Assembly (NCBI RefSeq): GCF_020623625.1
Contig: NC_060201.1
Span: 2,225,682 to 2,289,681 of the forward strand
Reading direction: 5' to 3'
DNA length: 64,000 nt
From: Saccharomycodes ludwigii
Lineage: Eukaryota > Ascomycota > Saccharomycetes > Saccharomycodales > Saccharomycodaceae
Shown: positions 18,842-62,100 of the stretch, piece by piece
How positions within the stretch are numbered: position 1 is the first letter of the stretch
Layout of the letters: every line of letters starts with the position of its first letter
The notes under the pieces: generated by a model
The model's database searches: none
Told to the model about the DNA's origin: nothing
The model's input: the letters and a program-made list of their open reading frames with translations, nothing else
Program-made: the position numbers and the translations under genes

Positions 18842-20446
18842 ATGCACCAATTATTACCGTCAAATATAATCGCTTTTATGTTATTATTTTCAATTTGCTT
18901 TTTCCAACCTTCAAATGCCGCGATGCCTATTCATGTTAATGGTTCAAGGTTTATTCAGCCTGCAGATTCAATAAATGACCCCGCTACCAATAAAGTATTC
19001 TTCATCAAGGGTATTGATTATCAACCAGGTGGCTCTTCAGGTTATAATAGTAAATCCAACTCCGATGCTTTGTCAAATGTTGATATATGTTTAAGAGACA
19101 CATTTGCCTTTCAACAGTTGGGTATTAATACTATTAGGGTCTATGCTTTAAATCCAGATCTAAATCATGATGAATGTATGAGTGTTTTGAATAAAGCAGG
19201 TATTTATTTAATTCTTGATGTTAATGGGCCAAACTATGGGGAAAATTTAAATAGGGCTGACCCAAGCAACACCTATAATGCTGCTTATTTAACTCGCATT
19301 TTTAAATTCATTGAAGCTTTTAAAAATTACCCAAATGTTTTGGGGTTTTTTTCTGGTAATGAGGTTATTAATGATGAAAGTAATTATGCTTCTGTTGACC
19401 CTGCATATATAAGAGCTATTCAAAGAGATATGAAACAATACATTGCAAAGCATAGTAATAGATCTATACCAGTAGGTTATTCAGCTGCTGATAATACAAA
19501 CTTAAGATTAGCCACATATGCATATTTACAATGTAATTCTATCGATGGCAAGCTGCTCAATAGAGTACTACAAGAAAGTAGTTCCGATTTTTTTGGCCTA
19601 AACAGTTACCAATGGTGTTCCGGTGGTGGGTCTGCTTCCTGGCAATCTTCCGGTTATGCCATTCTAAATTCTAGTTTTTCTTCCCTTTTGCATAGCCCAA
19701 TTTTATTCTCTGAATACGGTTGCAATTCTAATCCACCAAGAACTTTTACTGAGGTTTCCCAGGGTGTTTACAATGGCTTGATTAACACCTTTTCTGGTGG
19801 CTTGGTGTATGAATACTCAGAGGAGAATAATAATTATGGAATGGTGAAAATAAACCCAAATGATAATAGTATTATGTACAAACAAGATTTTATTAATTTA
19901 AAAAATCAATTCGCTAAAGTATCCTTACCGGTAATTTATGAATCTTCGATCAATAATAAAAATGATAATGTGATAAAATGTGATGCATCACTTATAAAAT
20001 CTAAATATGATGAATTCGGTGTGAATGATTTTGTTATCGTTGACCAACCTTCTAATATCGCATCATTAATTAAAAATGGTGTAAAGCCTAGCAATGTAGG
20101 AACCATAAAAAAAGATTACATTCCTGCTTCTACTTTTAGTTATGATGTTATTGATGTTACTGGAAATACCCTAACCCCTACTATCACTTACCATACTGAA
20201 AATCAAAGTGATTATCCGTCATCCTCGTTTGTTACTAACACTTCTTCTCTCTCTAAAATTATAAACTCACAAAAGTTAATCACATCTTTTGCAACTTCTA
20301 ATGGTAATGCTACTAGTGTAAGTCATATTATTGTATCCTCATTTTCCTCAATGAAAACATTAAAAAATAAAGATAGAGCAATAAAGTTAACTACGGATTT
20401 TGGTTTGTTTGGGCTATTAGCTGGAGTTTTTTTGGCTTTTTTATGA
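18842..20446 (+). CDS. GAS3: Gas3, GPI-anchored GH72 beta-1,3-glucanosyltransferase family protein
   Basis: A signal peptide spans about residues 1-26. The GH72 domain follows with KGIDYQPGG, IRVYALNP and LGFFSGNEV (E174, the expected acid/base) and LFSEYGCNSNPPRTF (E291, the expected nucleophile). The product has no Cys-rich CBM43 module. A Ser/Thr-rich stretch is followed by a C-terminal hydrophobic tail (FGLFGLLAGVFLAFL), the pattern for GPI anchoring. The family elongates cell-wall beta-1,3-glucan. In S. cerevisiae the Gas3 enzyme is reported to be weak or inactive, so this protein may be a minor or regulatory member even though both Glu residues are present. It has 534 residues (about 524 in S. 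cerevisiae), and its place after SCJ1 matches YMR215W. Confidence 0.93.
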   Translation: MHQLLPSNIIAFMLLFSICFFQPSNAAMPIHVNGSRFIQPADSINDPATNKVFFIKGIDYQPGGSSGYNSKSNSDALSNVDICLRDTFAFQQLGINTIRVYALNPDLNHDECMSVLNKAGIYLILDVNGPNYGENLNRADPSNTYNAAYLTRIFKFIEAFKNYPNVLGFFSGNEVINDESNYASVDPAYIRAIQRDMKQYIAKHSNRSIPVGYSAADNTNLRLATYAYLQCNSIDGKLLNRVLQESSSDFFGLNSYQWCSGGGSASWQSSGYAILNSSFSSLLHSPILFSEYGCNSNPPRTFTEVSQGVYNGLINTFSGGLVYEYSEENNNYGMVKINPNDNSIMYKQDFINLKNQFAKVSLPVIYESSINNKNDNVIKCDASLIKSKYDEFGVNDFVIVDQPSNIASLIKNGVKPSNVGTIKKDYIPASTFSYDVIDVTGNTLTPTITYHTENQSDYPSSSFVTNTSSLSKIINSQKLITSFATSNGNATSVSHIIVSSFSSMKTLKNKDRAIKLTTDFGLFGLLAGVFLAFL

Positions 20447-22560: not shown

Positions 22561-25278
22561 TTAAAACTTGTTGCATTGACAAGCCCAGCCTGGAATATCT
22601 TCTCCGGTGCCATACAAGTTTCTATCCTTCAAAATACTATTTTCCATTCCCAACGCATCTTTTAACCATGGATGGTTAACCATACCGCCAGCATCAGCCC
22701 TTAGTTTTGGATCAATAATTAACATTGGGTTTAAAAAATCGCTGATTTCTTTAGCTTCCCTTTCGCTGTAATGATACTTTTCAATAAAAACGTTATAAAG
22801 AGGCCAAAAATTAAGTTTTTCAATATGCCTTAGCGATCCATCTCTGGTGAAAATGCTCTTCGAATATTTACCGTTTTTCCTCATGTCCTCGGGGAAATCA
22901 CCAATTAGTTCCATGATTTGGGCAACATGATCATCATCTTTCCTATAATTGGCCCCTGATAAAGGTTCGAAAAGTAAATCGCCGGTTAATAGTTCAAAAA
23001 TCATACAGGCAACAGACCACACGTCGCAAGCACACCCCCATTGGTAACCGATGATGGCTTCTGGTGACCTGTATTCTCTTGTTTGGATTGAATTGGTGAA
23101 GTGTTGATCAACCCAACATCCATTACCCATGTCTGCAATTTTAACACTGATCAAATGGCTATTGTTCAATTCGGAAACGCTATTATCGTTCCTTGTTTTT
23201 TGTCTAGCCATATTGCCAATCTTGTTTAAAGGGTCAGGTGTACCGTTCAAATCAACACTAGAGAGTGATTCAACCAAGTCATTTTGTTGTTGTGAATTTT
23301 TTTCTTTGGTTATCTCGTTATTATTCTTACTGGTAACATCAACCTTGTTAGTTCTCTCACAGAAAGTGTTGTAAGTGACATTTCTATTGTTACAATTGTT
23401 GGTAGATTGTGTATTATTACTAGTAGCGGAAGCAGCAGCCATATTACTGTTAATACTGTCCTTAGTGGTGCTAGTATCACCATTTTTTGTATTAAAAATA
23501 TCATTACGGCTGGTGCTATCCTGGTTACCCCTATTACTATTATGATTGTTACTAATAGTAGTAGTAGTAGCATTCAGAATATAGTTCGTATTATTGTCAT
23601 TATCCTCATTAGTGCCCTGGTTACAATGATTAACACTACTGATACTATTATTATTATTGTTATTATTACTATTATCCAGTAGTGATGAGGATGTTGATGG
23701 CTTAACGGAACCTAAAAACTTTTGTTTCATTTCCTGAAAGTTTGCACTGGACAAAGGTGATGGTAGAGGTTGCGAGCTTGTTAAAATAGTTTTCCTTCTT
23801 GGCCTTCTACCGATGGGAATCATTTGTTGGGGTTTTTTTAATGATGACGAATGTTCATGATTAATATTGTTATTTTCTACATCTTTCACTGCACAACTAT
23901 TAATATCTGAAATAATTGGATGCTTGTTGGCTCGTCTCTGCTGTTTCCTTTCTTTATCTTGCAATTCAACCATCCTAACAATCTCTTCTACATCGCCAAT
24001 TTCCATTAACACGTTTTCTGGTTTTATATCGGTGTGAATAATGCCACATTCTCTATGCAAATAATCCAAAGCTAACAATAATTGTTTGGCTATTTGTTTA
24101 ACATAAATAATAGGAATACCATTGTGCTTATATTTCTTAATTAATGATAAAAGATTCTCCCCCAACACTTCAAAAACCATACAGATATGTTCGCCATTTA
24201 TACCACTATGTGTAAAAGAGTCTAGTAGGCACATGACATGCTTGGCTCCAGGATGCGATTTACCATCCATTTTAATAATTTCCAAATTAGTTTCTGCAAC
24301 AGATTTTAATAAATCAATTTCATCTGCAGCAGCTTCACTGAATAAATTATTGCTACGGACAATTTTCATTGCCACGTGTGTATTTTTAAAGGTATCTTTA
24401 GCTAACCAAACTGTGCTGAAATGGCCCCAACCCAACTTACGTTCCAAAATGTAGCGATTTTTCTTATAATATTCTCCGATAAAAGCTGGGTGATAGCCAC
24501 CTGGTTTATATTCTTTGATATTCTCTTCAGTTTTTTCATCAACAGGTTCTAGGTCTTCTTCTTCTTCTTCTTCTTCTTCATCATCATCTCCTTCTTCCTC
24601 TTTTTTTTCTTTTTCTTGTTTAGCATCATTATTTCTATTTTCATAACTATAATTTTTATTTGCAGTGATATCATAACGGTGTTTTGAATTATTTTTTATG
24701 TTATTAACATTAGAATGGCTTTCTTGCATAGATTGAATATTTTGATTTACAGGAACCAATCTATCAGTGCTACTGGATTTTAAACGAGCTTGAAAATTAT
24801 TAAAATTTTCATCGCCACTTAATTCATCCGATTCAGATTCACTGTTGTATTGAATTTGCGATAATTTTACCTTTTTTTCATTATCCAATAAAGTACTGGT
24901 AATAATACTTTTTGTACTAGTTAAAATATCAGAATTTGATGTTTCAATTGAAGATAATTGACTTTGTTTCTTTTTTAACGCTTGAGATAATTTTGATGAT
25001 TTTGGTGGTGACTTCCGTTTAGCCATGTTTTCTCTGGTAAACAATACATTTCTAGAGTTCCCTAAATCACAGATACACTTGTTTGAATCAGATAAAGACG
25101 TTTTTTTTTTCAATGCCGATTTTGGCCGGATAATTGGTTGTTGTGGTGATGGTGATGGTGGCGTACTTTTCGTATTAGCGGGAGGAGTAATGTATGTCTC
25201 GTTAGTGTTTGAACTAGTGGCAGAAGTAGAGTTACTGCTATGTGGTGGATTTAGATTTATGAAAAAGGAAGAATTCAT
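22561..25278 (-). CDS. SKY1: Sky1, SR-protein kinase (SRPK family)
   Basis: The 905-residue kinase has the split layout of SRPKs. An N-terminal acidic region contains a run of Asp/Glu (about residues 230-247). The first lobe then starts at LERKLGWGHFSTVWLAKD (about residues 277-294), with catalytic IIHTDIKPENVL (D417). A long Asn/Ser/Thr-rich spacer covers about residues 440-690. The second part has ADMGNGCW in place of DFG and the activation segment SIQTREYRSPEAIIG, typical of SRPK. It closes with LDPKLRADAGGMVNHPWLKD (here IDPKLRADAGG). Sky1 phosphorylates RS/SR dipeptides, for example in Npl3, controlling nuclear import. It is larger than S. cerevisiae Sky1 (about 742) because of the N-terminus and spacer. 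The SR-like protein gene lies 615 bases upstream on the same strand. Confidence 0.96.
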   Translation of the reverse strand: MNSSFFINLNPPHSSNSTSATSSNTNETYITPPANTKSTPPSPSPQQPIIRPKSALKKKTSLSDSNKCICDLGNSRNVLFTRENMAKRKSPPKSSKLSQALKKKQSQLSSIETSNSDILTSTKSIITSTLLDNEKKVKLSQIQYNSESESDELSGDENFNNFQARLKSSSTDRLVPVNQNIQSMQESHSNVNNIKNNSKHRYDITANKNYSYENRNNDAKQEKEKKEEEGDDDEEEEEEEEDLEPVDEKTEENIKEYKPGGYHPAFIGEYYKKNRYILERKLGWGHFSTVWLAKDTFKNTHVAMKIVRSNNLFSEAAADEIDLLKSVAETNLEIIKMDGKSHPGAKHVMCLLDSFTHSGINGEHICMVFEVLGENLLSLIKKYKHNGIPIIYVKQIAKQLLLALDYLHRECGIIHTDIKPENVLMEIGDVEEIVRMVELQDKERKQQRRANKHPIISDINSCAVKDVENNNINHEHSSSLKKPQQMIPIGRRPRRKTILTSSQPLPSPLSSANFQEMKQKFLGSVKPSTSSSLLDNSNNNNNNNSISSVNHCNQGTNEDNDNNTNYILNATTTTISNNHNSNRGNQDSTSRNDIFNTKNGDTSTTKDSINSNMAAASATSNNTQSTNNCNNRNVTYNTFCERTNKVDVTSKNNNEITKEKNSQQQNDLVESLSSVDLNGTPDPLNKIGNMARQKTRNDNSVSELNNSHLISVKIADMGNGCWVDQHFTNSIQTREYRSPEAIIGYQWGCACDVWSVACMIFELLTGDLLFEPLSGANYRKDDDHVAQIMELIGDFPEDMRKNGKYSKSIFTRDGSLRHIEKLNFWPLYNVFIEKYHYSEREAKEISDFLNPMLIIDPKLRADAGGMVNHPWLKDALGMENSILKDRNLYGTGEDIPGWACQCNKF

Positions 25279-25893
25279 CTAGTAGTTTTCTTTTTCTTTT
25301 TCTTCTTTTGTTTTTCTTCTTTCGTTTTTGGTTCTTAGTTTTTGTTTCTAGTTTTCTCCCTCTTTCTTTTTAATTTTAACTTTATTGAAAGTCAGCTTTA
25401 TATTGCGTGAAAAGGGGATAATAAATGCGATAGTAATAAAATTATAGAAAGAAAAAAAAAAAAAAATATTGGAGCAAATTATAAAAAAAATAAAAATAAA
25501 AAATTGGCAATGGTGGTGGTGATATATTGAAACGGAGAATGTTTTGGTTTCTTATAGCAAATCGGGCACAATGACGTTAAGTCATATTATTTCCACTACA
25601 AGCACACGCACACGCACACGCACACGCACGTGACATCTACCTTTGGCCTGTTTTGGTTTTGAAATCCATAAAACTTCCCGGGAATTAACGGATGTTTTCG
25701 CTTTATTCCTTTTTTCCTGTCTTTTCCTCTAATTCATTTCTCAAACAACTTTCTGTACAAATAAACAATAATAATAAAAAAAAAAAAAATATATATACAA
25801 AAACATACATATCTACATACAAAAAATTAAAAATACAATTTGTCTTTGATACACACATATTTATATAACATTTCTTGTTTCTTTACACCCCAC
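25279..25893. other. Intergenic region SKY1 / SR-like gene
   Basis: A 615-base gap that holds the SKY1 promoter and the 3' flank of the SR-like gene. It contains a (CACACG)n microsatellite at about 25600-25630 running into CACGTGAC (25627-25634), a site type bound by Cbf1 or other bHLH factors, about 350 bases upstream of SKY1. An A-run and ATATATA lie near 25778-25796. Confidence 0.55.
25600..25634. promoter_or_regulatory. (CACACG)n repeat ending in a CACGTGAC E-box
   Basis: Several CACACG units are followed by GCACGTGAC. GTCACGTG on the other strand is the full Cbf1 consensus. The location in the SKY1 promoter is clear; the factor is inferred from motif identity only. Confidence 0.45.
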
Positions 25894-27225
25894 TCATTCG
25901 TATGGTTGGACTGGCGCCGGTTGTTCTTCTTGTAGTTCATATTCAGAATCTCTAGCAGGTGGCATTTCTTCATTATAATCACCACCATAATTTCTCGATG
26001 AAGAATAAGATCCATTAATATTAGAAGACGCATGTGCAGGGGGTGGAATAGCAGAAGAGGATGAAGCGGTATTATAATAGTATGGTTCTTGTTGGTAGTA
26101 TTCGTTTCCCCTATAATTTTCATTACTATAAGGATAACTACCACCACGACTATTGCTGTAACCACCACCTCTACTACTATAACCACCACTTCTAGCACCT
26201 CTGGATTGTGGGCCATAAGCATTAAAACGATATCCATTACCCCTAGCACCGTAACTTCCACCTCTGCTGATACCGTTATGATATCCACCACGATAACTAC
26301 CGCCGCGGAATCCACCTCTTGATCCACCTCCTCTGCCACGATATCCATAACTACCGCCCCTTTGTGAATAGCCCCCTGGGAAACGTGAATGTTGTTGTGG
26401 CATTGAACGGAATGATGGCATTACCATACCAGGTTGTCTTGGTTCAGATTTTGCCCATTCAACACTCAATAAAAAGGCTGGGTCATATTCAAATGGATTT
26501 CTGTCTAATTCATTTAGAGCTTTTTCTGCATCTTCATAGTGTTCAAATTGAACGAAGGCATATGGTCTGGAATAAATACTTCTTGGAGGCGGAATATCAA
26601 TTCTTAAGATTTTACCGAATTTTTCAAAAATAGGAGCCAACTCTCTTGCACGAATTTCTCTTGGAAAACCGGCAACATATAAGCAGTTCTTGGGTGACAA
26701 TTGTTCATTAGCGTTTGCTAATGGTTGAATAGTATGGGCCTGGTCTTGATGGTGTTCATGTTCTGATTCTGAAATATGTTGTTCTCTTTGTTGTATTTGT
26801 TCTGTGTGGCCATATTCCTGTTGTTCTTGTTGTTCTTGTTGCTGTTGTTGTTGTTCTTGTTGCTGTTCTTGTTGTTGTTCTTGTTGTTGTTGTTGTTGTT
26901 CTTGTTGCTGTTGTTCTTGTGGTGGCTGTTCTGGTTGCTGTTGTTTTTCTTCTTGTGGTGGTTGTTCTGGTTCTTGTGGCGGTTGTTCTTGCTGTTCTTG
27001 TTCTTGTGGTGGTTGTTCTGTTTGCTGTTGTTCTGTTTGCTGTTGTTCTGGTTGCTGTTGTTCTGGTTGCTGTTGTTCTTGTGCTTGTTCTTCTTGTGCT
27101 TGTTCTTCTTCTGCTTGTTCTTCTTGTTGTTGCTGAGGTTCCCTAACTGTACTCATTTCGGTTGAACCTTCTGTGGCTGCTGCTGGTGGTGGTGGTGGCA
27201 CCTTTTGATTTAATTCTTCACTCAT
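25894..27225 (-). CDS. SR/RGG-type RNA-binding protein with one RRM, Srp1-like
   Basis: 443 residues in three parts. Residues about 25-145 are almost pure Gln/Glu/Pro (QEEQ, PPQEQ repeats, encoded by CAA/CAG-rich DNA). One RRM covers about residues 178-262, with RNP2 LYVAGF and RNP1 RPYAFVQF. From about residue 285 a Gly/Arg/Ser/Tyr region contains SRGG, RGG and GSYR units. The RRM pieces IRARELAPIFEKFGKI, IDIPPPRS, YSRPYAFVQFE and LSVEWAK resemble, from memory, the RRM of S. pombe Srp1 and RRM1 of animal SRSF proteins more than any S. cerevisiae RRM. The overall layout (Q/E-rich start, RRM, SRGG tail) also recalls Npl3, but the second RRM of Npl3 is absent. It is likely a nuclear mRNA-binding, splicing or export factor. 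S. cerevisiae has no gene between SKY1 and GUA1. The neighbour SKY1 encodes the kinase that phosphorylates such tails. Confidence 0.85.
   Translation of the reverse strand: MSEELNQKVPPPPPAAATEGSTEMSTVREPQQQQEEQAEEEQAQEEQAQEQQQPEQQQPEQQQTEQQQTEQPPQEQEQQEQPPQEPEQPPQEEKQQQPEQPPQEQQQQEQQQQQQEQQQEQQQEQQQQQQEQQEQQEYGHTEQIQQREQHISESEHEHHQDQAHTIQPLANANEQLSPKNCLYVAGFPREIRARELAPIFEKFGKILRIDIPPPRSIYSRPYAFVQFEHYEDAEKALNELDRNPFEYDPAFLLSVEWAKSEPRQPGMVMPSFRSMPQQHSRFPGGYSQRGGSYGYRGRGGGSRGGFRGGSYRGGYHNGISRGGSYGARGNGYRFNAYGPQSRGARSGGYSSRGGGYSNSRGGSYPYSNENYRGNEYYQQEPYYYNTASSSSAIPPPAHASSNINGSYSSSRNYGGDYNEEMPPARDSEYELQEEQPAPVQPYE
26810..27140 (-). repeat. Gln/Glu/Pro-coding CAA/CAG-CCA-GAA low-complexity repeat
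   Basis: This stretch of the SR-like gene is an imperfect trinucleotide repeat that reads as TTG/CTG-rich DNA on the plus strand. It encodes long Gln runs broken by Glu and Pro. The opposite strand has long open frames of Leu, Cys or Val with no biological look. The tract length is likely to vary between strains. Confidence 0.85.
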
Positions 27226-28317: not shown

Positions 28318-29919
28318 ATGAGTGAAAACAAAGCAGCCTCAAGCACCTCCGTTGCTGAAGTTTCCAAAGTTTTTGATACAATTTTAGTCTTAGATTTTGG
28401 TTCCCAGTATTCTCATCTAATCACCAGGAGATTAAGAGAATTTAATGTCTACGCTGAGATGTTACCATGTACCCAAAAAATCTCCGAACTAACATGGAAA
28501 CCAAAGGGTGTCATCCTTTCTGGTGGCCCATATTCCGTCTATGCAGAAGGTGCACCACACGTGGACCACGATGTTTTCAAATTAGATGTTCCAATATTGG
28601 GGATTTGTTACGGTATGCAAGAGTTAGCCTGGATTAACGGCAAGAATGTTGCTCGTGGTGAAAAGAGAGAATATGGTCCAGCTACTTTACATGTTGTCGA
28701 TAAATCTTCCCCATTGTTTGAAGGTGTTGATAATTCCATTGTTTGGATGTCACACGGTGATAAATTGAATGGTTTACCAACAGGTTTCAAGACCATTGCT
28801 ACTTCTAATAACTCTCCATATTGTGGTATTGCTTCTGAGACTAAACCCATCTATGGCATTCAATTTCATCCAGAAGTCACACATAGTGCAAAAGGTAAAA
28901 TCTTACTAAAAAATTTTGCTATCAACATTTGTAAAGCTAGTCAAAACTGGACTATGGAAAACTTTATTGATACTGAAATTAATAGAATTAGAACTATTGT
29001 TGGACCAACTGCTGAAGTTATTGGTGCAGTTTCTGGCGGTGTTGATTCTACCGTTGCAGCTAAACTAATGAAGGAAGCCATTGGCAACAGATTCCATGCT
29101 ATTATGGTTGATAACGGTGTTTTGAGAATGAATGAGGCTGAAAATGTTAAAAAAAACTTGGGTGAAGGTTTAGGTATTAATTTAACAGTTATTGATGCTT
29201 CTGAAGAATTCTTGACCAAACTAAAGGGTGTTACTGATCCAGAAAAAAAAAGAAAGATTATTGGAAACACTTTTATCCATGTTTTTGAAAGAGAAGCTGA
29301 AAGAATTAAACCAAAGGATGGCGATGAAATCGAATTTCTATTACAAGGTACCTTATATCCTGATGTTATTGAATCTATTTCCTTCAAGGGACCATCTCAA
29401 ACTATCAAGACACATCACAACGTTGGCGGTTTGTTAGATAACATGAAATTGAAATTAATTGAACCATTAAGAGAATTATTTAAAGACGAAGTTAGACATT
29501 TGGGTGAATTGCTGGGGATTCCTCATGATTTGGTCTGGAGACATCCTTTTCCAGGTCCAGGTATTGCAATTCGTGTTTTAGGTGAGGTTACTAAGGAACA
29601 AGTTGCTATTGCCAGAAAGGCAGATTACATCTACATTGAAGAAATCGTTAATGCCGGTTTGTACGATAAAATTTCCCAAGCATTTGCTTGTTTATTACCA
29701 GTTAAATCCGTGGGTGTCATGGGTGACCAAAGAACTTATGAGCAAGTTATTGCTTTAAGAGCTATTGAAACCACTGATTTCATGACTGCTGATTGGTTCC
29801 CCTTCGAACATGGCTTTTTAAAAAAGGTTGCTTCTAGAATTGTGAATGAAGTTGACGGTGTTGCTAGAGTTACATATGATATTACTTCTAAACCACCAGC
29901 TACCGTTGAATGGGAATAA
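28318..29919 (+). CDS. GUA1: GMP synthase (glutamine-hydrolysing)
   Basis: Final step of guanine nucleotide synthesis: XMP + ATP + glutamine to GMP. The class I glutamine amidotransferase domain (about residues 18-210) has the nucleophile in GICYGMQE (C97) and the His-Glu pair in IQFHPEVTH. The ATP pyrophosphatase domain has the PP-loop SGGVDS at residues 239-244. The C-terminal dimerisation domain contains [17 protein letters not shown] and ends PPATVEWE, the canonical terminus. The length of 533 agrees with the family (about 525). Codon usage is biased to the preferred yeast set (GGT, GTT, ACC, AAG), as expected for an abundant enzyme. It follows the SKY1 region as YMR217W does. Confidence 0.98.
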
Positions 29920-30348: not shown

Positions 30349-31119
30349 ATGCATGAAAGGGTTATATTGTTGAAGAATAAAACACGACCTAAAGACGCAT
30401 ATTGTAATTATCTGAATGAATACAATTATGAACCAGTCTTCGTCCCTTTGATTAAGCATTCGTATATTCCATCAGAAGCTATAACGTTGTTGACAGATGA
30501 CAATTATTTTAATCAAGTAGATTCTTTAATTTTGACCTCGCAAAGAGCTGTTGAGTGTTTAGAAGAATCTATTATACCATCATTGTCACAAATTCAAAAA
30601 AAAAAATTGTTAAAAAAAACAGTGTATACAGTAGGACCTGCAACAGAAGATTTCATTAAAAGAGTTGGATTTACCAATGTTAAAGGCGGTATCAATGCTG
30701 GAAATGGTTCAGTTTTAGCAGACATTATTATAAATGATTTAAAAACATTAAAAAGTGGTAAATTTTCAAACTTTTTGTTCTTTGTAGGGGAAGTTAGAAA
30801 AGATATTATACCTAAAAAATTGGCATTGCATAAAGATTTGATTCAATTGAAGGAGCTTATTATTTATAAAACAGAAGAGCTGGATGGTGTCCTAGAAAAT
30901 TTCGAACGAGAAATATATGATTCAAAATATGTAGTTTTTTTTAGCCCTCAAGGTACAAAAAAACTATTACCCTTTGTCAAGGAAAATCATGGAGCGTTTA
31001 AAGTTATTACTATTGGACCAACGACAAAGGACTATTTAATATCAAATGGCATAAATGTTGACATGGTTTGTGAGAAGCCTGAAGCCTCTTCTTTGGTGAA
31101 AAGTGTGCAGAAACTATAG
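30349..31119 (+). CDS. HEM4: Uroporphyrinogen-III synthase
   Basis: Converts hydroxymethylbilane to uroporphyrinogen III in heme synthesis. The 256-residue product (about 275 in S. cerevisiae) starts MHERVILLKNKTRPKDAY. It shows the family pattern of two Rossmann-like lobes, with LILTSQRAVECLEE and YTVGPATEDF in the first half and VVFFSPQGTKKLLPF and VITIGPTTKDYLISNG in the second. SQRAVE and TIGPTT correspond to the conserved active-site cleft residues. It lies between GUA1 (a YMR217W orthologue) and TRS130 (YMR218C), while its own S. cerevisiae copy is YOR278W, one of the clear interleavings. The family is poorly conserved in sequence, but the combination of motifs and position is strong. 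Confidence 0.92.
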   Translation: MHERVILLKNKTRPKDAYCNYLNEYNYEPVFVPLIKHSYIPSEAITLLTDDNYFNQVDSLILTSQRAVECLEESIIPSLSQIQKKKLLKKTVYTVGPATEDFIKRVGFTNVKGGINAGNGSVLADIIINDLKTLKSGKFSNFLFFVGEVRKDIIPKKLALHKDLIQLKELIIYKTEELDGVLENFEREIYDSKYVVFFSPQGTKKLLPFVKENHGAFKVITIGPTTKDYLISNGINVDMVCEKPEASSLVKSVQKL

Positions 31120-31254: not shown

Positions 31255-34200
31255 TTATACAACAATGATATACTCAAAAGCGTTTAAAAAATCTACAGTA
31301 GCAGGTATTATCCCAGCATGTCTGTTATTTGGAATAGTAGTGATTTCTAAACGAGGATATCTTAAATAACCTCTTTTAACCGGAATTAATTCAACAGATA
31401 CAAAAGACTCCCTTTTGGTAACAGCAAATCTCTTACAGCCCGTAATTAACCAATCATTATTGATAGCGTTATTATTATTATTATTTGATATAATAAATTC
31501 AAATATGTAACTATCCATGGAGTTATTTTGTAATGACCAAACCTCAGACTTGTTAACTATGTGTATATCATATTTATAGGATTTACCCAAGCACAAACTA
31601 TTCAGCCTTTTTTTAGGTAACATTTCCACCAAAAATATGTCAGATCTTGGTTCTAAGATGGTAACAGGCACAGATAATTTATTCAATTCAATCGTCTTAA
31701 GATATGAATCAAAATTGACAATCGTAACCCCTTCAAATAACTTCTGATACACATTTAAAATACTGGTTTTTCTTTCCTTGTTTGATACTAAATTATTTAA
31801 AAACTCCATAAAATACTCCAGATTATAATTGCTCAACTTTATTGTATTGCTACAAAGCAATTGGGTCTTATTGTATTGAAATTTAGGTAAAATTTGATTA
31901 ACCCATAAATTCTTCCACATAGATAACTCAGGATTTTCAATCAAATTGAAAAATTTTTCTGTAACAATCTTATCCAAAACATCCTTTAAGGTGTTATAAC
32001 TTAATTCTAACAAAAACTCGTCATTGGAATCAAACTTTGCCACTCCATCTTTTAATTTTATCCTATAAAAATTGTTGCAGTCTTCATCCTTTGGATCTAG
32101 TAATAATGGTGTTTCTAAGTTCAAGTTACCAATAATATCATATTTGGAATAATCGCCCTTTAGTATACTCTTGTGTAGGTAAATTGGATCATCTGAAGAG
32201 TTTATCAAAAAGTTAAAATAAAATAAATCATTTTTATAAATATCTTCAACCGATACTACTAAATCGAGTTTATTGTTTATTAAAATCACATTTTTCTCGC
32301 TGTAACTTTCCCCATTTTTTGTAAATCTCACTTCTTTTAATAATTTTAAAATTACCCTATTATTTCCACCATTATATTCCACAAATTTTATAGACGAATC
32401 GTTGTTGATCTCTAAAAATGAATTACCATTAGCAAACACAAAATTACTGGGTGACAATACAGTTAGTTTTAAGTGAAAATCGGAAATTCCCTTATTTTCA
32501 TTGAAATAATCCATACCTAAAGAACTAAACCCTAGATGTGTTATTGATGGTGAGGTAATTGATATGTCAAAATTTTCCTCATTGTACAATGGCTGAAAAA
32601 TTACAGATTTGAATGAAAATTCTTTGTTTAAAATCGTATTTCCCAAACAAAATTCTAATGAAACAAAATCAAATTTACCAAATATAATGTCTTTTGTCTC
32701 CAAAACATACTTGTTTGACCCAGAATGAAAAGTGGTTTCTTTTCCAAACAAAAATTTTAAATACTCATCTTTAGAATTTTTAAAAAGAAGTTTTATGGAT
32801 GACACATTTGCCTCTTTAAAAACTTTATCGTTAAAAACAGTTAAATCGAAGGCATAAACATTGGGTTTAGATAAATAATAGTCATTATCAACAGACACAG
32901 CGAATAACTCATCGATAGAATAGACTAGTTGTGAATCATCCTTTTCATTCAAACTCAAAAACTTTACCCACCATAATTCCCTATCTAAGCTTCTACTCAC
33001 CAAATTCAAATAGCCATTAGTTAAAACAGATGGTATTGGAATATCTTCACCTTCTATTGTAATGGTTTTCTCCGAGTCCTTCAAGTGTTCCAGACTAGTT
33101 GCATATTTTTCTAAAACACTAACAGCTAAGAAATACCAATCTTTACTTAAATAATATTCATAAGATGATTTCAAAATCTCTACAGCTTTTTTATACTCTT
33201 TATTCTGATAATATAAAAATCCAATCTGGATGGATAATATGTCCACTAATCTTTCTCTCCTGTTTTTATATGCAGATAAAATATCTGTAGTGTGCATAAT
33301 AAAATTTTTGGTAAAAACTTTATGGGTGGAAAAAGTAGACAATAAGTGCTTGGAAGTTTGTTGTTTTAATACCTGCTGTGCGTCAAATTGAATGAAAAAT
33401 AATCTAATATCTGAATTATCATAGACCATCCGTAACCACGCATCCCTTTTGATCATTAATAAATCCCCCTTTATTTCGTTAAGCATACATTGTATTTGTT
33501 GTAGGTTTTCATCCGCAGTATCAAGTTGGAAAAAATGGAAATTTAAAATTTTCTCACATGCCTCATATAAAAACAAAGATAAATCTTCGGAATCGCCATA
33601 GTTGTCTTTAATATTAGTTATAAATACTTTGATAGTTAAATTTAAAGTTATCATTTTTTCAACCTGTAAATAAGAACTGCAATCCAAAAGAGCCAATTGG
33701 TTTAATAGCTCAATTTTGCTTAACTGAAACCTTGTTAAGCACCCGGTTTTATAAAGCTTTGTTAATGGTAATCCTATAACATCTTCTTTGCTAAAAAACT
33801 TCATGTCTAGGTCACCCAAAGTGATATTTGTAGATTTTTCCAACTGAGTAACCGTTGCTTTTAAATGATTCAAATTTGATTGCGCTTCAGTAGTAATGTG
33901 AAATTTCTTATACAACTTAAACAATGTCTCGTAACACAATAATTTTGTCCCAGGATCAGTATCCAATCTGATTTGTTCGGTTAAAACGTCCAATCTTTCT
34001 TCAAATACTTTTAATAGCATTTGTTTTAAACCTTTCGTAAAATTTATCCAATAATTGTATTTATCAGTTTCTGATCTGTAAACTGTGTGTATTTCATAGG
34101 TCGTTGTATTAGGAAAATCCTTTGTAAACTTTTCCATTAATGAAACACTTTTAAACAATTTAGAATCATGAATTGCTTCTGTTGATTTAAGAAGTAAAAT

Positions 34201-34734
34201 CGATCTTATAATAGGTATTTTAATCCTTTTTTTTTTGTCTTTAAGAGCCAGCTGCTCATTAATAATGGTTTTTGTGGTTGTTTCAAGCACATTATCATCT
34301 TTGAAACGAATCTCCACTTCATTATCTTCAATTGAAGAAAGCCATTGTTTAACTAAAGGTCTTATTTTAGAACGATATTCATCAATGGAAGAACAATTAA
34401 TAACTATATAACTAACAAAAGGCTTGTCTAACAAGAATGAATCTTTATTTAGTGATTGAACTTTATCTGTGGTGGTATTCAAAACATCAATCTCTGGTAA
34501 TAACTGAACATTTAATTCATTGATTGTAGTTATATTTGTTGTATTTCTTGGCTTCCAATGCAAATTTTTCAAGGGTAAGTTGTTGCTAATTTCTTGTTTA
34601 ACACCATCAAAAATAGATAAAGGATCAAAATAGCTGATTATTACACCATTTCCATAGGTGAACATATTTTTCATGTCAGGAGTCACATTAGACTCGTTTA
34701 TTATGGAAACATCTTTACCTTGGGAAATGGACAT
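31255..34734 (-). CDS. TRS130: Trs130, TRAPP II complex subunit
   Basis: A 1159-residue protein with no obvious motif. It is assigned from position (between HEM4 and ESC1-like, as YMR218C before YMR219W), length (about 1102 in S. cerevisiae) and general features. The start MSISQGKDVSIINESNVTP leads to GNGVIISYFDPLSIFDGVK, which resembles the start of TRAPPC10/Trs130. A helical, TPR-like central section (for example YYQNKEYKKAVEILKSSYEY) and a beta-rich C-terminal half follow, as known for the family. Trs130 is essential in TRAPP II, the Rab-exchange factor for Ypt31/32 at the Golgi. No frame breaks are visible across 3.5 kb, so the gene is intact. The C-terminus contains an Asn run (NNNNNN). 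Confidence 0.85.
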   Translation of the reverse strand: MSISQGKDVSIINESNVTPDMKNMFTYGNGVIISYFDPLSIFDGVKQEISNNLPLKNLHWKPRNTTNITTINELNVQLLPEIDVLNTTTDKVQSLNKDSFLLDKPFVSYIVINCSSIDEYRSKIRPLVKQWLSSIEDNEVEIRFKDDNVLETTTKTIINEQLALKDKKKRIKIPIIRSILLLKSTEAIHDSKLFKSVSLMEKFTKDFPNTTTYEIHTVYRSETDKYNYWINFTKGLKQMLLKVFEERLDVLTEQIRLDTDPGTKLLCYETLFKLYKKFHITTEAQSNLNHLKATVTQLEKSTNITLGDLDMKFFSKEDVIGLPLTKLYKTGCLTRFQLSKIELLNQLALLDCSSYLQVEKMITLNLTIKVFITNIKDNYGDSEDLSLFLYEACEKILNFHFFQLDTADENLQQIQCMLNEIKGDLLMIKRDAWLRMVYDNSDIRLFFIQFDAQQVLKQQTSKHLLSTFSTHKVFTKNFIMHTTDILSAYKNRRERLVDILSIQIGFLYYQNKEYKKAVEILKSSYEYYLSKDWYFLAVSVLEKYATSLEHLKDSEKTITIEGEDIPIPSVLTNGYLNLVSRSLDRELWWVKFLSLNEKDDSQLVYSIDELFAVSVDNDYYLSKPNVYAFDLTVFNDKVFKEANVSSIKLLFKNSKDEYLKFLFGKETTFHSGSNKYVLETKDIIFGKFDFVSLEFCLGNTILNKEFSFKSVIFQPLYNEENFDISITSPSITHLGFSSLGMDYFNENKGISDFHLKLTVLSPSNFVFANGNSFLEINNDSSIKFVEYNGGNNRVILKLLKEVRFTKNGESYSEKNVILINNKLDLVVSVEDIYKNDLFYFNFLINSSDDPIYLHKSILKGDYSKYDIIGNLNLETPLLLDPKDEDCNNFYRIKLKDGVAKFDSNDEFLLELSYNTLKDVLDKIVTEKFFNLIENPELSMWKNLWVNQILPKFQYNKTQLLCSNTIKLSNYNLEYFMEFLNNLVSNKERKTSILNVYQKLFEGVTIVNFDSYLKTIELNKLSVPVTILEPRSDIFLVEMLPKKRLNSLCLGKSYKYDIHIVNKSEVWSLQNNSMDSYIFEFIISNNNNNNAINNDWLITGCKRFAVTKRESFVSVELIPVKRGYLRYPRLEITTIPNNRHAGIIPATVDFLNAFEYIIVV

Positions 34735-35489: not shown

Positions 35490-38400
35490 ATGAAGCAAGA
35501 AAATGGAAAAAAAAACAACAAAAAAAATGAGAAAAACAATAATGATGGCAGTCATTTAACTCTTAGTGTTGAGGGGAAAAATTTTAAAAGGTATAATTCC
35601 CCCTTTGAAAGTAATAAAAATGGAGCAGCTGATATTTTGTTAAAAAATGTCAAGCTTATTCCCGATTTTAAAATTGGGAAAAAAACAACTTCCTTTAAGG
35701 CCAATAGCAAATCAAATATTCCAGAATCTCAATTAGGCAGATTGGGAGATGAAGTATGTTCCAGAAATGGTATTTTAACCTCAAAAGATTCTAGCACTGC
35801 TTTAAATTGGGTAACTTCTGTAATTTTAAGAGGTAAAAAAATATTGCAAAATATACAAGAAGAGAATGAAATCAACAGAGCAGAAATTCAAGATATTAAA
35901 GATTCTCGTAGATTAGAAAGTGTAAATGTAGAAAACATTTTAACTAAATCCGCTAAAGATTATTATTGTTTCAATGAAAACCAGGGGCAGAGGGATAATG
36001 ATGATAATTTAGTGAAAGAAGGAGGGGCAGCACAGCTTCTTGAAAATGCTTCAGAAAATACTTCAGAAAATAATTTAGAAAATAATTCCATTGATGACCT
36101 TTTTGAACGTTCGTCTCATGCCACACCGATTTCAAATACATTTTATCATGGATATCATAATAAGGGATTGGGAAATGACGAAGAAATGCTCGATAATAGA
36201 GCGATAGGAACTGATACAAATCAAGAGCTAAAAGAAAAGGAAAAAGAAAAAGATGAATCCCTTGTCATTCTTTCTAGTACTGAAGAAGAAGAAGAAAATG
36301 AAAATGAAAATGAAGATGAAAATGAAAATGAAAATGAAAATGAAAATGAAGATGAAACAGAAAAAGAAAATAAACAGTTTCAAATACAAACGTGTCGTGA
36401 TAATAATGAAAACTCGGAAAATAGTGTCAGCGGAAGTTCATATAGTTATTCAAGTGAGGAAAGTTCTGGATTTGTGTCAGACAATTTCAGCATGAAAGTT
36501 GATCAAAAGCAAAAAAATCCTAGGCGACACAGTGTAATAAGTTCTGAGCATGAACAACTAGATTCTTATCATAAATTTGATGAACAAAAAGATTTAACAC
36601 ATGAACAAGATTATAAACACACTTTCGAAGATTCGAAGGACAAATTTATGGATTGGAAACATCGGGAACAGTCAAGTATTAATCATAACAAGGATGAATC
36701 TTATGAAACTACATTTAAAATAGCACACGCAGCCCTCAATGAGTATAATGCATTTGAGCTTAATTCATTTTCTAAGGAGCCTTCCGATGATGGAGAATAT
36801 AATTCTGATGAATCTCCACAACCTGTTGATAACACTGTAGAACGTAGCCAATTTAATATACATGGTGAAAGAGGACAAGCCGATTATGAAAGGTTACAGT
36901 TGGAAGAAAAAGAATTTGGAAGTGACGAATCCGTTCAAAATATTGATTCTGGCTCTTTTTCAAATGAAATAAGTGAAGGAAAATACGATTATAATAAGGA
37001 AGACACTGCTGAAAATGATGAAGAGTGCAAATCTGAGTCTCGGACACCACCTTTCAATTATTCTTCTAAATCGCCTTCTCATATGTTTCAACAGCAACAG
37101 TCTGGATTACGCCCTGAAAGAGATGAAAGTGAAGCTTCCATGGTTTCGGATAGAGAAACTACATTAGATTCAGAGGAAAAAATAACGCTATCTGACGAAA
37201 ACATTATCAACAATAGACAAATAGGAGAAAACAAAATAAATAATGAGAGCAACCAGTCATCTTCTACTTTTAATGAAGTGTATGAAATTGCAGATAACAG
37301 CAGCGAATCAAACGAACCTAGTATTCACGAAAATATTAATACAGACAATAATGCATTGAATGAAATTATTCATAAAGGTCCCGAATTTAAGAAAATGCTA
37401 GAAAGTGACATAGGTTCTCATTACGAAGATGAAAAAAATTCATATACAGAATCATCTGCAGGTAGTGAATCTGAAGAAAATGAAGAACGGAAACAACATT
37501 TATCAAATGAGCTATCCCATTTTCCGGAAGATAATACTTGTAGTACTAATAATGAAGATGATAATAACGAAAACATTGATGATAGAGATAGCGGTGAAGA
37601 ACCTTCTGTGAGCCATACACCTGAGGACATTATTAGCAATAAAGAAAATTTTGAAAAAGGTAATTTATACTCTAAAGCAGAAAGGCTTGCATCTAATGTT
37701 TTATTGAACATGAAATTGCCTATTTTCAGAAATTTTCAAGATTTCGTTAATCACCAAAGTCAAGTAGGTGATCAGGACCAAGTCAAAAATTTCGAAGAAA
37801 TTGAATATGGAAACGAAACCCAAGAGGCAAAGAAAAAGGATATGCAACAAAATCAAGAACTGATAGAAGAAAAACATAGTCTAGAACCAGAATATCACAC
37901 TGCTTATCAGGAACAACAAACGCAACCAGGAAAGGAAAGCGGTTATGATGGTCCTCGGAACCGTGAATGTCACGAACATACACTTAAAGAAAAAGGACAT
38001 AATAATGAAGACGAGGGAAACGAAAATGAAAATTATTCAAAACCAGAACAATACGAACAATTAATGACTCATCCAACAAATGGAAAATCAAAAAATCATA
38101 GTAATTCCTCTTATGTGGAACAAAACATGACTTTTACGGAGCATAAGGAAAATGTAGTGGTGGGAGATGATATTTTCCGAAACTTGGCATTCAAAGAAGG
38201 GACAGATAATGCAGAACAAAAAGTATCAGATCTAAATGATATTGCTTCCCACAATAAAAGGCATTTTAATTCGATTGAGTTAAGTGATTCTTCTGATGAG
38301 GAATTTCTTCATACTGCTCAAATATCTTTTGATAAAACGACCGAAGGTATTGGTCCAAATCAGGAAAATCAGCCTATTGATGAAAGTTTAAGTGGGGACA

Positions 38401-41400
38401 CTTCCATAGTAGTAAATAGAAACCCAACTAACAACACTAGTAAAGCATGTATTAATGAGAATTTTGTGGAAAACAATAAGATTAATGACAAAATCATGTA
38501 TTCCAGCAAACCAGCCAGTTATGGTGAAGACTCAGCTGACATTTCCAAAATTAAAGATAACACTGAATACTTTTCTTTTATTCAAAATAAACCAAAATTT
38601 AATTTAGTATATGGGTCAGAATATAGTAGTGTATCAGATGAAGGAGAACAAAAAAAAGATATAAACGCGCAAGACTCCAATTCCAACTTGGATAAATATG
38701 TTTCTCCTTTTCAAGCAAACCCTTTTACTTTCAAAACAGAGATTAAATTAGACCCTGACTATGTGTCTCCTTTCCTTACAGATCCATTTAATAACGCCAA
38801 ATTAATGAGCGGGCCCGAAAAACGATTAATGGCAGTTTTAGACAAAATACACAAAGAGAAGCGTGTCAAGCCACAGAATGAAAAACAGAAAAGTGGAGCA
38901 TGTCTGAATAATAATAATAATAATAATGATATAGATGCTATTTATTCAAATAATTCCAAGCCTATTCTTACTAACAGTTTAACTTTAACCAACAAAAAGG
39001 AAGAATCCATACAGAATCCCAACAATCATTTTGTAGAACCTAACTTGAAGGAAAGTTTAAAAGCTTCTGGGACAAAAAATACCACAGCAAGGAATATAAT
39101 TGGTGTTAATAAAGAAATAACTTTATTTGGCAACAGTTCAAAGGCCCCTATGGACCATGATACTGAAATTGGTGAGGGGGATGCCTTTGATTTATCTGCA
39201 AATTCGGAACCAGAACATATTTTAATGGCCAAAGACACCAAGAAACGGGACAGTAGCCACATTATAAGTGGGAATAATAATAGCGACAATAGTCTTTCCA
39301 ATGCTTCGATTGTTAACCTTGATGAAAAAAACTGTGAGTGTGAATCGCATCATGTTACTATTCCTGGAACTGAAAAAATATTAGTTAAAGATGAAATTGT
39401 GAACCCAGTTGAAAAGGTGCCGGTAACTTTGGTTTATGGTAATGATGATAAAAAAGACGAACCTGAAGATAAATCATTGAGGGAACTTCAAAGTAAAGAT
39501 ACTTCAAGGGATTTGGCCTTGTGTTCAGCAGATGAATCTTACCAAGCTGGAAATAAAATTGAACAGCCAATAGAAAACAGAATATTGAACAATTATGATG
39601 CTAGAGAAATATCAGCTATACCTGAATCCGAAAAAAAGAATGAGGGTAACTGTGCATTCCAAATCCAAGATCAACAACTTTCCAGTAATACAGACAATAC
39701 CTTCAATCCTCATAATAAGGATTTCGCCGCTCAAACACAAAAAAAAGGAGTATTTCCTAATAATATGGATATAGAGAAATCCAATGTGGAAAAAATTACT
39801 TTAAAATCACAACAGACAACTAATGACAATGATGTCGACCCTTATTTAAATAATGAGGCAAGGGAAAAAGCTCTTTTTACCTCAAAATTGTCAAATATTG
39901 CTGATGAAAGAACAAAAGTTTCGCCCGGTAAAAATAAAAACTTGCTATCTGAAGATGTCAAAGCATTTTGTTTGAAATCCGATCTACCCGCAATAACTAA
40001 AAGTTTGTCTACTGTGGTGAATTTAACTGATAGTGATATTGAAATGGAAGATATCTCAAATGCTCCTACTCCGGTGCTAAAGGATGATTCATTGGAATTA
40101 CCGAAAGTTGCGCTGCAGAACATAAATTTTGGTGGAAACTTTACTGTTAACTCTGGACTAGAATCTTCTGTTTCTCTTGACAAATATACTACACCATTAG
40201 AAAGCTTAAATGGGAACGAAGTATATGGAAAGAATTGGCGCAACGATAACAGGAGTTCGGTAGATTTGGATCCTAAGTTGTTTGTTGATTCCAATAAAAT
40301 GGAAGTTAATGAACTGCCTGTAAAAGGCGCGTTTGAAACAAATGATAATGAACTAAGACCCATTATAGAAGCTGACAATGGGGGTAGTGTTCTCCCCGAA
40401 AATGGCCATTTGGGAAAACATGATTTAGCTATTGACAACGAAAACGCAATTAATTCTTTTGAAAAAATTCAGCTGCAAGATTCTTTCCGCAACCCAGCTA
40501 TTTCCCGCAAGGATGAACATAAGAGGGAAAGTATGAAAAATACTACTTTACCACTAAACGAGGGGAGGAAAGATAGTGAAGAATATCAATCAATGAATGT
40601 TTATAAACAGGAGTTTAATGAAGTTGCTAAAAAATCTTCTTCTCCTAACAAAAAATTAAGCTTATTAAAAAACATTATATCTTCCCCGGTAAAATTCGCT
40701 AAAGAAAAGTTGAATAACTTACGAGCTTTAGGCTCGACAGCTAATGAATTTGTTAATTTATTGGATAGTGGAGATGGTACTAGCAGAGAAGATACCCCAA
40801 TTCCTTTTACTGGAACTGTTCATAATAAAGGGGATCATCCAACGCCCAATGTCAAGATGGATTTTACTGAGAAAAATGAAAGGAATTGGACGTCTGATTT
40901 GTCGAGTAGCGAGGAGGAAATTCATTTGAATAGAATTGCTAAGGAATTAAAGGGTAAAAATAAACCACCTAATGTAAGAAAAAATAATTTTAGTGATTAT
41001 AATATAGCTGATAACAAATATTCAAGTACAAAACACATTAATAAAACTAATGAATTGGATGCGGGTATGTACGCTGAAATAAATAAGGAAGGTGCTAAAA
41101 ATGTAAACAAAAACAATGCAGCTATTGCTTTTGGAAAAACTAGTAATGAATACATCAAATTTGACGGAACAAACTCAGATGTATCGGATAGCTTGGACCA
41201 GGATATATCTTTTCATAGCACACAGTGTGAACCAAACAAAGAAGAATTGAATAATGAAAATAAAGAAGAGGGAATTGTACAAGTTCCAAATTTCTATGAA
41301 TTGCCTTTTTTATCTGAGCATTCTGTATTATCTTCTATTGTGGACGAGAGCAAAAAAGACCTAGTAATTAACGGTTTCGATGGAGACTTGGTTAATAGTC

Positions 41401-61142: not shown

Positions 61143-62100
61143 ATGTCGGTTGAAGAATCTTTAGACCAGATTATCAATAGTACCAATCAAGAGCAACAAG
61201 AAAAAGAATATACTCAGGTATGTAATAACCAGTAACTGCGTTTTTTCTTTAACATCATATTCCTAATGCAAATATTTCCCTTCAATTTCAACTTACATAT
61301 CGATAATAAGATTAATATACAGTAAAATGTTACTAACAGACTTATACACAAATATTTATTATTTTTCGATACCTTTTTTTCTTTTTTTTTTTTTTTTTTT
61401 TTTTTTTCTTTTTTTAAGTTAAAATTCAAATGAAAAATTTTTAAAATGAAAAGACAAACAGAAAACAAAAAAAAAAAAAAGATCAATAATAATAGATTAT
61501 AATGTTATATCCAACATAAAGGAACCTGCACGCAAAGTTACGTATTATCGTCGCCGTGATTTGAGAGAGGGGCTAGGAAAGAGATTGGGCTTACCTGATA
61601 TGCACAGAGATGCGAGAGACTACGATCCTAATACATATAGATTAAGGGTAGGGGATAATAATGAAACTAAAGCAGCTAAAAAGAAGCTACGTATTAAAAA
61701 TATTCCATTATCTACATCTGATTTTTTAATTGAAGATTTAATAAAAGATATTGTGCCGGAGACGAAGTATCAAGCTTCATTTTTTGATCATAAGGATGAA
61801 AGAACTGCGATAATCACCTTTGATGATGAAAGTGTCATGCAAGAATTAGTAGATCGATTAAATGGTAAAGAATTGGAGGGTAAGGCTATTATTGTCGAAA
61901 TATTTGAAAAAGAAGCAAGAAGAACGGTTTCTAATCGTTTTTCCTCGTCTAGAGGTAGAATAAATAAAAGTTTTGGTCCAAGAGGACCTAGGGGAAGAGG
62001 CAATCGCAATTCACGTGGTCGTGGTTATAACACTAGTATCAACTCTAGGGCTAATCAGAACCAGTTAGATAGGGAATTGGATGAATATATGAATAGTTAA
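61143..62100 (+). CDS. YRA2: Yra2, REF/ALY-family mRNA export factor, two exons
   Basis: Exon 1 at 61143-61217 encodes 25 residues starting MSVEESLDQIINS, similar to the REF start of Yra1 and Yra2 that binds Mex67. The donor GTATGT is at 61218-61223, with a perfect branch site TACTAAC at 61331-61337. Two acceptors keep the frame: CAG ending at 61461 or AAG ending at 61521. The first is the better consensus and gives 237 residues, the second 217 (about 203 in S. cerevisiae). Exon 2 holds ARKVTYYRRRDLREGLG, a degenerate RRM (RIKNIPLS to AIIVEIFEKEARR), an RGG region and the C-terminal REF motif LDRELDEYMNS. It bridges mRNA and the export receptor Mex67. YRA2 in S. cerevisiae lacks an intron. 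The call is firm; the exact acceptor is not. Confidence 0.92.
61218..61461 (+). other. Spliceosomal intron of YRA2 (preferred 244-base model)
   Basis: GTATGT donor, TACTAAC branch site (61331-61337), a T-rich tract after it (61374-61415) and CAG acceptor at 61459-61461. The next in-phase acceptor is AAG at 61519-61521. Reading through the donor meets TAA after 5 codons, and the exon 2 frame is closed by TGA at 61447-61449, so splicing is required. Confidence 0.85.

Follow-up and report, generated by a model that had tools for sequence, protein, structure and literature searches.

A Srp1/Slr1-type RRM protein gene beside SKY1 in Saccharomycodes ludwigii, in a layout variant without the RSP/RSRS motifs usual in its family

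Fungi usually carry the serine/arginine (SR) proteins Srp1 and Srp2, Saccharomyces cerevisiae being the exception without SR proteins, and Slr1 is the Srp1 orthologue of Candida albicans (excerpts of PMC9767378); S. cerevisiae has no typical SR protein, and three SR-like proteins are known in it (excerpts of PMC9605648). Its SR-protein kinase Sky1 phosphorylates Npl3 at S411, within the peptide YRTRDAPRERSPTR, and CK2 is also involved (extracts of PMC2538588). An SR-like protein with one RNA recognition motif (RRM) and an RGG tail is already known (C. albicans Slr1), as is an SRPK-family kinase acting on Srp1-type proteins (Schizosaccharomyces pombe Dsk1). Here we analysed 64,000 nucleotides of Saccharomycodes ludwigii (contig NC_060201.1, positions 2,225,682 to 2,289,681; hereafter the window; G+C 30.6%), in which a gene for a 443-residue RRM protein lies beside SKY1. 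A previous sequence-only reading had taken the two as a kinase-substrate gene pair of a type not described before; given Slr1 and Dsk1, neither the type of SR-like protein nor the action of such a kinase on its kind is new. The locus holds an ordinary SKY1 and, next to it, a Srp1/Slr1 orthologue whose layout departs from that usual in the family. The features of the locus are as follows:

25894..27225, minus strand: Srp1/Slr1-type gene, an open reading frame (ORF) of 443 codons that requires no intron, identified by Pfam RRM_1 (54.2 bits), the Srp1-family profile and the tree
26689..27225, minus strand: P/Q/E-rich N-terminal extension, residues 1-179
26440..26688, minus strand: Srp1-type RRM, residues 180-262, with RNP2-like LYVAGF and RNP1-like SRPYAFVQF
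25897..26439, minus strand: disordered G/S/Y/R tail with an acidic end, residues 263-443
25279..25893: intergenic gap between SKY1 and the Srp1-type gene, 615 bases, the genes in tandem with no divergent promoter in common
22561..25278, minus strand: SKY1, SR-protein kinase, 905 codons, its kinase lobes separated by a long low-complexity spacer

The two ORFs, both intact, lie as first described: adjacent, on one strand and 615 bases apart, with the Srp1-type gene upstream of SKY1. Since they stand in tandem they share no promoter; the Srp1-type gene instead has a divergent region in common with GUA1. The SKY1 product has S. cerevisiae Sky1 as its best PDB match (1q8y, E 2.4e-161; 1how, E 7.2e-161) and aligns with it across both lobes of the split kinase domain, as members of the SRPK family (Sky1, SRPK1) do. 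Genome-wide comparisons were made within this species' own genome (12,500,424 bases on 8 contigs). SKY1 is single-copy there: its self-match scored 2035.8 bits and the next of 22 genome matches 47.6 bits, with no other SRPK-like full-length match.

Homologues of the 443-residue protein were gathered with an alignment of it, P0001 (a 344-residue protein from a public assembly) and a provisional S. pombe Srp1 RRM sequence, which gave 267 fungal matches, 120 of them listed. The top listed matches were P0001 and S. pombe Srp1 (P0002; E 3.6e-34, 50% identity across the RRM), and the RRM of P0001 is 54% identical to that of the 443-residue protein over 90 residues. An RRM profile of the family was built from 114 listed homologues, leaving out the 443-residue protein and P0001, and was scored on 42 RRM-bearing ORFs of the genome (RRM set of 72 places, one of which, C4:1623210, is missing). 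By best single domain the 443-residue protein scored 92.3 bits against 45.3 for the next; when the profile was made from six CUG-clade Slr1 proteins instead, the scores were 74.9 and 22.3. In a 47-row tree, for which 30 of the 120 homologues listed and 15 of the genome's 71 RRMs were used, it falls within a 31-row Srp1/Slr1 clade (99/99) with P0001 as its sister (98/86), while the RRMs of Npl3 and of the Gbp2-like protein fall outside. An earlier 74-row tree had united it, at 100/94, with P0001 and the provisional S. pombe RRM. By profile and tree, the RRM is thus of Srp1 type, and not an Npl3 RRM1, the placement that the sequence-only reading had named as speaking against it, although the topology tests given below do not formally reject a grouping with Npl3 RRM1; the resemblance to Srp1 that it had proposed is borne out, and the four RRM motifs it quoted all occur in the translation. 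On this sequence evidence the assignment to the Srp1/Slr1 family is firm.

Retention of the gene here and its absence from S. cerevisiae, also proposed at the outset, agree with the excerpts of PMC9767378 and PMC9605648. No Saccharomycetaceae name occurred among the 120 listed of the 267 matches, which is weak evidence of absence, since this kind of search requires shared five-residue words. Earlier protein searches gave P0001 as the sole match, one of them missing S. pombe Srp1 as well; tblastn in viral_contigs and genome_contigs found no relatives of the gene, and an NCBIfam search gave five matches, all far under the cut-off. Literature searches on how yeasts lost SR proteins, in which PMC3173450 came up, added nothing. 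One listed homologue, P0091, is titled importin alpha / serine-rich RNA polymerase I suppressor and is actually a Srp1-type RRM fragment, a mislabel that arose because the gene name SRP1 was transferred to the wrong family.

The 443-residue protein consists of a P/Q/E-rich start (Q 40%, E 22% and P 11% over residues 1-177), a sole RRM (Pfam RRM_1 at residues 182-242) and a disordered tail. AlphaFold2 gave a predicted local distance difference test (pLDDT) score of 92-97 per ten-residue block across residues 181-260, and below 50 for most of the tail. LYVAGF and SRPYAFVQF are labelled after the RNP consensus. The tail holds eight RGG and four SRGG, and neither RSP nor RSRS/SRSR. Motifs and domain positions were compared across those 115 listed homologues that reach 150 residues, five shorter ones of the 120 being left out. 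The RRM starts at residue 180 in the 443-residue protein and at 144 in P0001, against within the first 20 residues in 112/115 homologues; it starts beyond residue 60 in only three. The Npl3-like layout with a single RRM was therefore correctly noted before, and it is common to P0001, which likewise has a P/Q/E-rich start, an RGG tail and no RSP/RSRS, its extension and tail being shorter.

The CUG-clade Slr1 proteins (C. albicans Slr1; P0114 of Candida viswanathii, P0086 and P0110) likewise have a Srp1-type RRM with a DIPPPR block and an RGG tail, but in those compared the RRM starts near residue 3, whereas here a 179-residue extension comes first; their C-termini carry RSRSPE(R/H)(Y/F) in five of six full-length proteins and RSRSPSR in the sixth, whereas the 443-residue protein ends in an acidic stretch and has no RSP/RSRS. 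S. pombe Srp1 likewise has a single Srp1-type RRM, but its tail is RS-rich. S. cerevisiae Npl3 and the Npl3 of this genome share the P/Q/E-rich start and the RGG tail but differ from the 443-residue protein in their pair of RRMs, which are of another type, and in a RERSP motif at the C-terminus.

In the strict sense, an SR protein carries an RS domain that is 50 residues or longer and more than 40% RS/SR. RS/SR pairs cover no more than 20% of any 50-residue stretch of the 443-residue protein, whereas in S. pombe Srp1 they reach 48%; the 20% ceiling also holds for P0001, P0114 and the Gbp2-like protein. The protein is thus no SR protein in the strict sense. It also departs from a trait that is usual in its family, though not defining, namely a tail bearing RSP or RSRS: RSP occurs in 111/115 listed homologues, RSRS or SRSR in 86/115 and either in 112/115, the three without being P0001, P0099 and P0107 (the last a record marked partial). 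Its tail has two RS and seven SR, the RS sites being FRSMP and ARSGG only, neither of them like the RERSP of Npl3 or the RSRSRSP of the Gbp2-like protein. In 10,000 shuffles of the tail, the nine SR+RS pairs observed compare with a mean of 5.6 (p 0.085), while the tail of S. pombe Srp1 has 18 pairs in 185 residues against 7.9 expected (p 0.0002). Of the proposal that SR dipeptides in an SRGG tail mark a Sky1 substrate, the four SRGG units stand; the SR pairs do not exceed what the tail's composition gives, and we rejected them as a special signal.

Together these results make it probable, in our judgement, that the gene encodes an mRNA-binding Srp1/Slr1 orthologue whose place beside SKY1 is inherited gene order, and in which Sky1 control through an RS patch has been lost or reduced. 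RNA would be bound through the one Srp1-type RRM together with an RGG tail that may be methylated on arginine. The protein would be nuclear or shuttling and, beside Npl3 and the Gbp2/Hrb1-like protein, would serve in the processing, export or localised translation of mRNA; for RNA binding, methylation, shuttling and a role in messenger ribonucleoprotein, we infer by analogy with Npl3, C. albicans Slr1 and S. pombe Srp1. The position of the gene next to SKY1 most likely reflects inherited gene order, which is likelier than a kinase-substrate unit because the serine-arginine motif of the family is absent from the protein. What control Sky1 had through the RS patch of the family is probably gone, or cut down to isolated RS/SR sites.

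Several points weigh against this reading: i) by whole-protein profile score, two multi-RRM proteins, L021 (138.1) and L026 (136.3), exceed the 443-residue protein (94.0), which is explained by the summing of scores over several domains; ii) the approximately unbiased (AU) test fails to reject trees in which the RRM is made to join Npl3 RRM1 (p 0.223; p 0.109), the RRM being short; iii) it likewise fails to reject a forced grouping with the CUG-clade proteins as possible sisters (p 0.183); iv) the homologue set was gathered by a query that contained the 443-residue protein itself and a provisional S. pombe RRM; v) by analogy with known targets, Sky1 could use the tail's two RS and seven SR as sites. 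On the last point, the confirmed targets of Sky1 carry either three RS or a lone one, Npl3 being of the isolated kind, and single SR dipeptides are perhaps targets (parts of PMC6688984), so the absence of RSP/RSRS does not in itself preclude phosphorylation.

Those isolated sites are what a functional kinase-substrate gene pair would depend on, with Sky1 phosphorylating the SRGG serines or the two RS sites of the tail and the linkage kept for co-inheritance or co-regulation. The genes are adjacent on one strand, and for a pair named in advance chance neighbours would be expected at about 2 in 5030 (~0.0004), taking 5031 ORFs (excerpt of PMC8567612); however, the adjacency was noticed after the fact, from reading the whole window. 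Dsk1 is reported to act on the Srp proteins of S. pombe and Srk1 to interact with FgSrp1, and lone RS sites can be Sky1 targets, as said. Against this, the protein has no RSP or RSRS/SRSR, its SR+RS pairs do not exceed composition, the motifs are kept in Npl3 and the Gbp2-like protein, the known Sky1 targets of this genome, yet neither of their genes adjoins SKY1, and the tandem genes with their 615-base gap have no divergent promoter in common. Since the SR/RS pairs are at composition level and RSP/RSRS is missing although Npl3 and the Gbp2-like protein keep theirs, the kinase-substrate part of the sequence-only reading is unsupported, and we regard such a module as unlikely. By term count, Slr1 is not mentioned in the two C. 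albicans Sky1/Sky2 papers (PMC9121809, PMC10111165). A linkage of SLR1 to a SKY gene in C. albicans was also sought from gene numbers (SLR1 orf19.1750, SKY2 orf19.35, SKY1 C1_06090C), and the identifiers, which are all that was compared, gave no sign of it; orf19.1754, considered as a candidate for the kinase gene, is CMK2. Modification of Slr1 is reportedly the subject of a 2017 paper by Ariyachet and others.

An intermediate possibility is that a Slr1-kinase gene pair, present in an ancestral budding-yeast gene order, was kept in this lineage while the substrate lost its RS patch and gained an Npl3-like P/Q/E-rich start, leaving isolated SRGG/RS sites for Sky1, if any, and control in the midst of rewiring; we consider this rather improbable.

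The likeness of layout (P/Q/E-rich start and RGG tail) would also suit an offshoot of Npl3 with a single RRM, produced by duplication within the lineage, and the AU tests above do not reject the corresponding grouping of the RRM. However, the Npl3 of this genome is a separate gene (L031:395-1399; match to S. cerevisiae Npl3, 7qde, E 1.9e-83). With S. cerevisiae Npl3 as query, L031 scored 281.5 bits and the 443-residue protein ranked only 15th in the genome, with 17.3 bits; conversely, the Npl3 RRM scored 28.1 bits against the Srp1-family profile, compared with 92.3. The protein has one RRM where the Npl3 family has two of Npl3 type, its full-length similarity is with P0001, and the tree is contrary. 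Identity with Npl3 or descent from it was therefore rejected on the separate gene, the profile and the tree, though not formally by the AU tests, and is in our view very improbable. A decaying gene without function, for which the missing RS motif and the low-complexity N-terminal repeats might speak, is likewise very improbable, since the frame stays open for 443 codons and the RRM is modelled with high confidence and is 54% identical to that of P0001.

In the L031 Npl3 the P/Q/E-rich start is much shortened, the tail is a regular RGGFG repeat and the C-terminal RERSP, the counterpart of the Sky1 site S411, is kept. L024, with three RRMs and an SR-rich start, retains RSRSRSP and, to judge by that layout, is putatively Gbp2/Hrb1-like. 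Neither gene is adjacent to SKY1. The Srp1-type gene thus adds a third SR-like protein to these two, a set that resembles that of C. albicans. As S. cerevisiae is without Srp1/Slr1, a close, non-pathogenic relative that keeps Srp1/Slr1, Npl3 and a Gbp2-like protein would offer a way to ask which roles of Slr1 are now covered by Npl3 and Gbp2. Loss of the RS patch in the 443-residue protein and P0001, with SKY1 single and intact, amounts to an experiment of nature on the degree to which the fate of an SR-like protein is tied to its kinase. Should the arrangement prove ordinary, it serves as a corrective to a tempting reading, in that adjacency of a kinase gene and a substrate-like gene is no evidence of regulation.

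The neighbouring genes are as follows:

28318..29919, plus strand: GUA1 (GMP synthase), divergent neighbour of the Srp1-type gene (Pfam GATase, GMP_synt_C)
30349..31119, plus strand: HEM4 (Pfam HEM4, 140.5 bits)
31255..34734, minus strand: TRS130 (Pfam NTS_TR130, 230 bits)
18842..20446, plus strand: GAS3-like glucanosyltransferase (Pfam Glyco_hydro_72, 397.5 bits), the particular GAS gene being judged from position
same neighbourhood: CAF20 and a DnaJ protein (SCJ1), by Pfam
further left in the window: Misato-like, IPP-transferase, BRO1-domain, EFR3 and Myb-domain genes, listed with the neighbours

The local order GAS3-SKY1-[Srp1-type gene]-GUA1-HEM4-TRS130 agrees with the Pfam matches, and apart from the Srp1-type gene the listed neighbours are unrelated housekeeping genes, none of them SR-related. 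A literature search on the SKY1-GUA1-HEM4-TRS130-GAS3 gene order found nothing. Between 6328 and 31119 of the window, DML1, EFR3, CEF1, SCJ1, GAS3, SKY1 and GUA1 are interleaved with MOD5, RIM20, CAF20 and HEM4. In S. cerevisiae the former seven lie on chromosome XIII (YMR211-YMR220) and the latter four on XV; such interleaving is what is expected of a genome without whole-genome duplication. Further along, a 2383-codon ORF (35490-42641, plus strand) sits where S. cerevisiae has ESP1. A second RRM protein, of 166 residues, is encoded at 61600-62100 (plus strand; Pfam RRM_1, 28.6 bits), and its C-terminus, LDRELDEYMNS, is reminiscent of the C-terminus of Yra1/REF mRNA-export adaptors.

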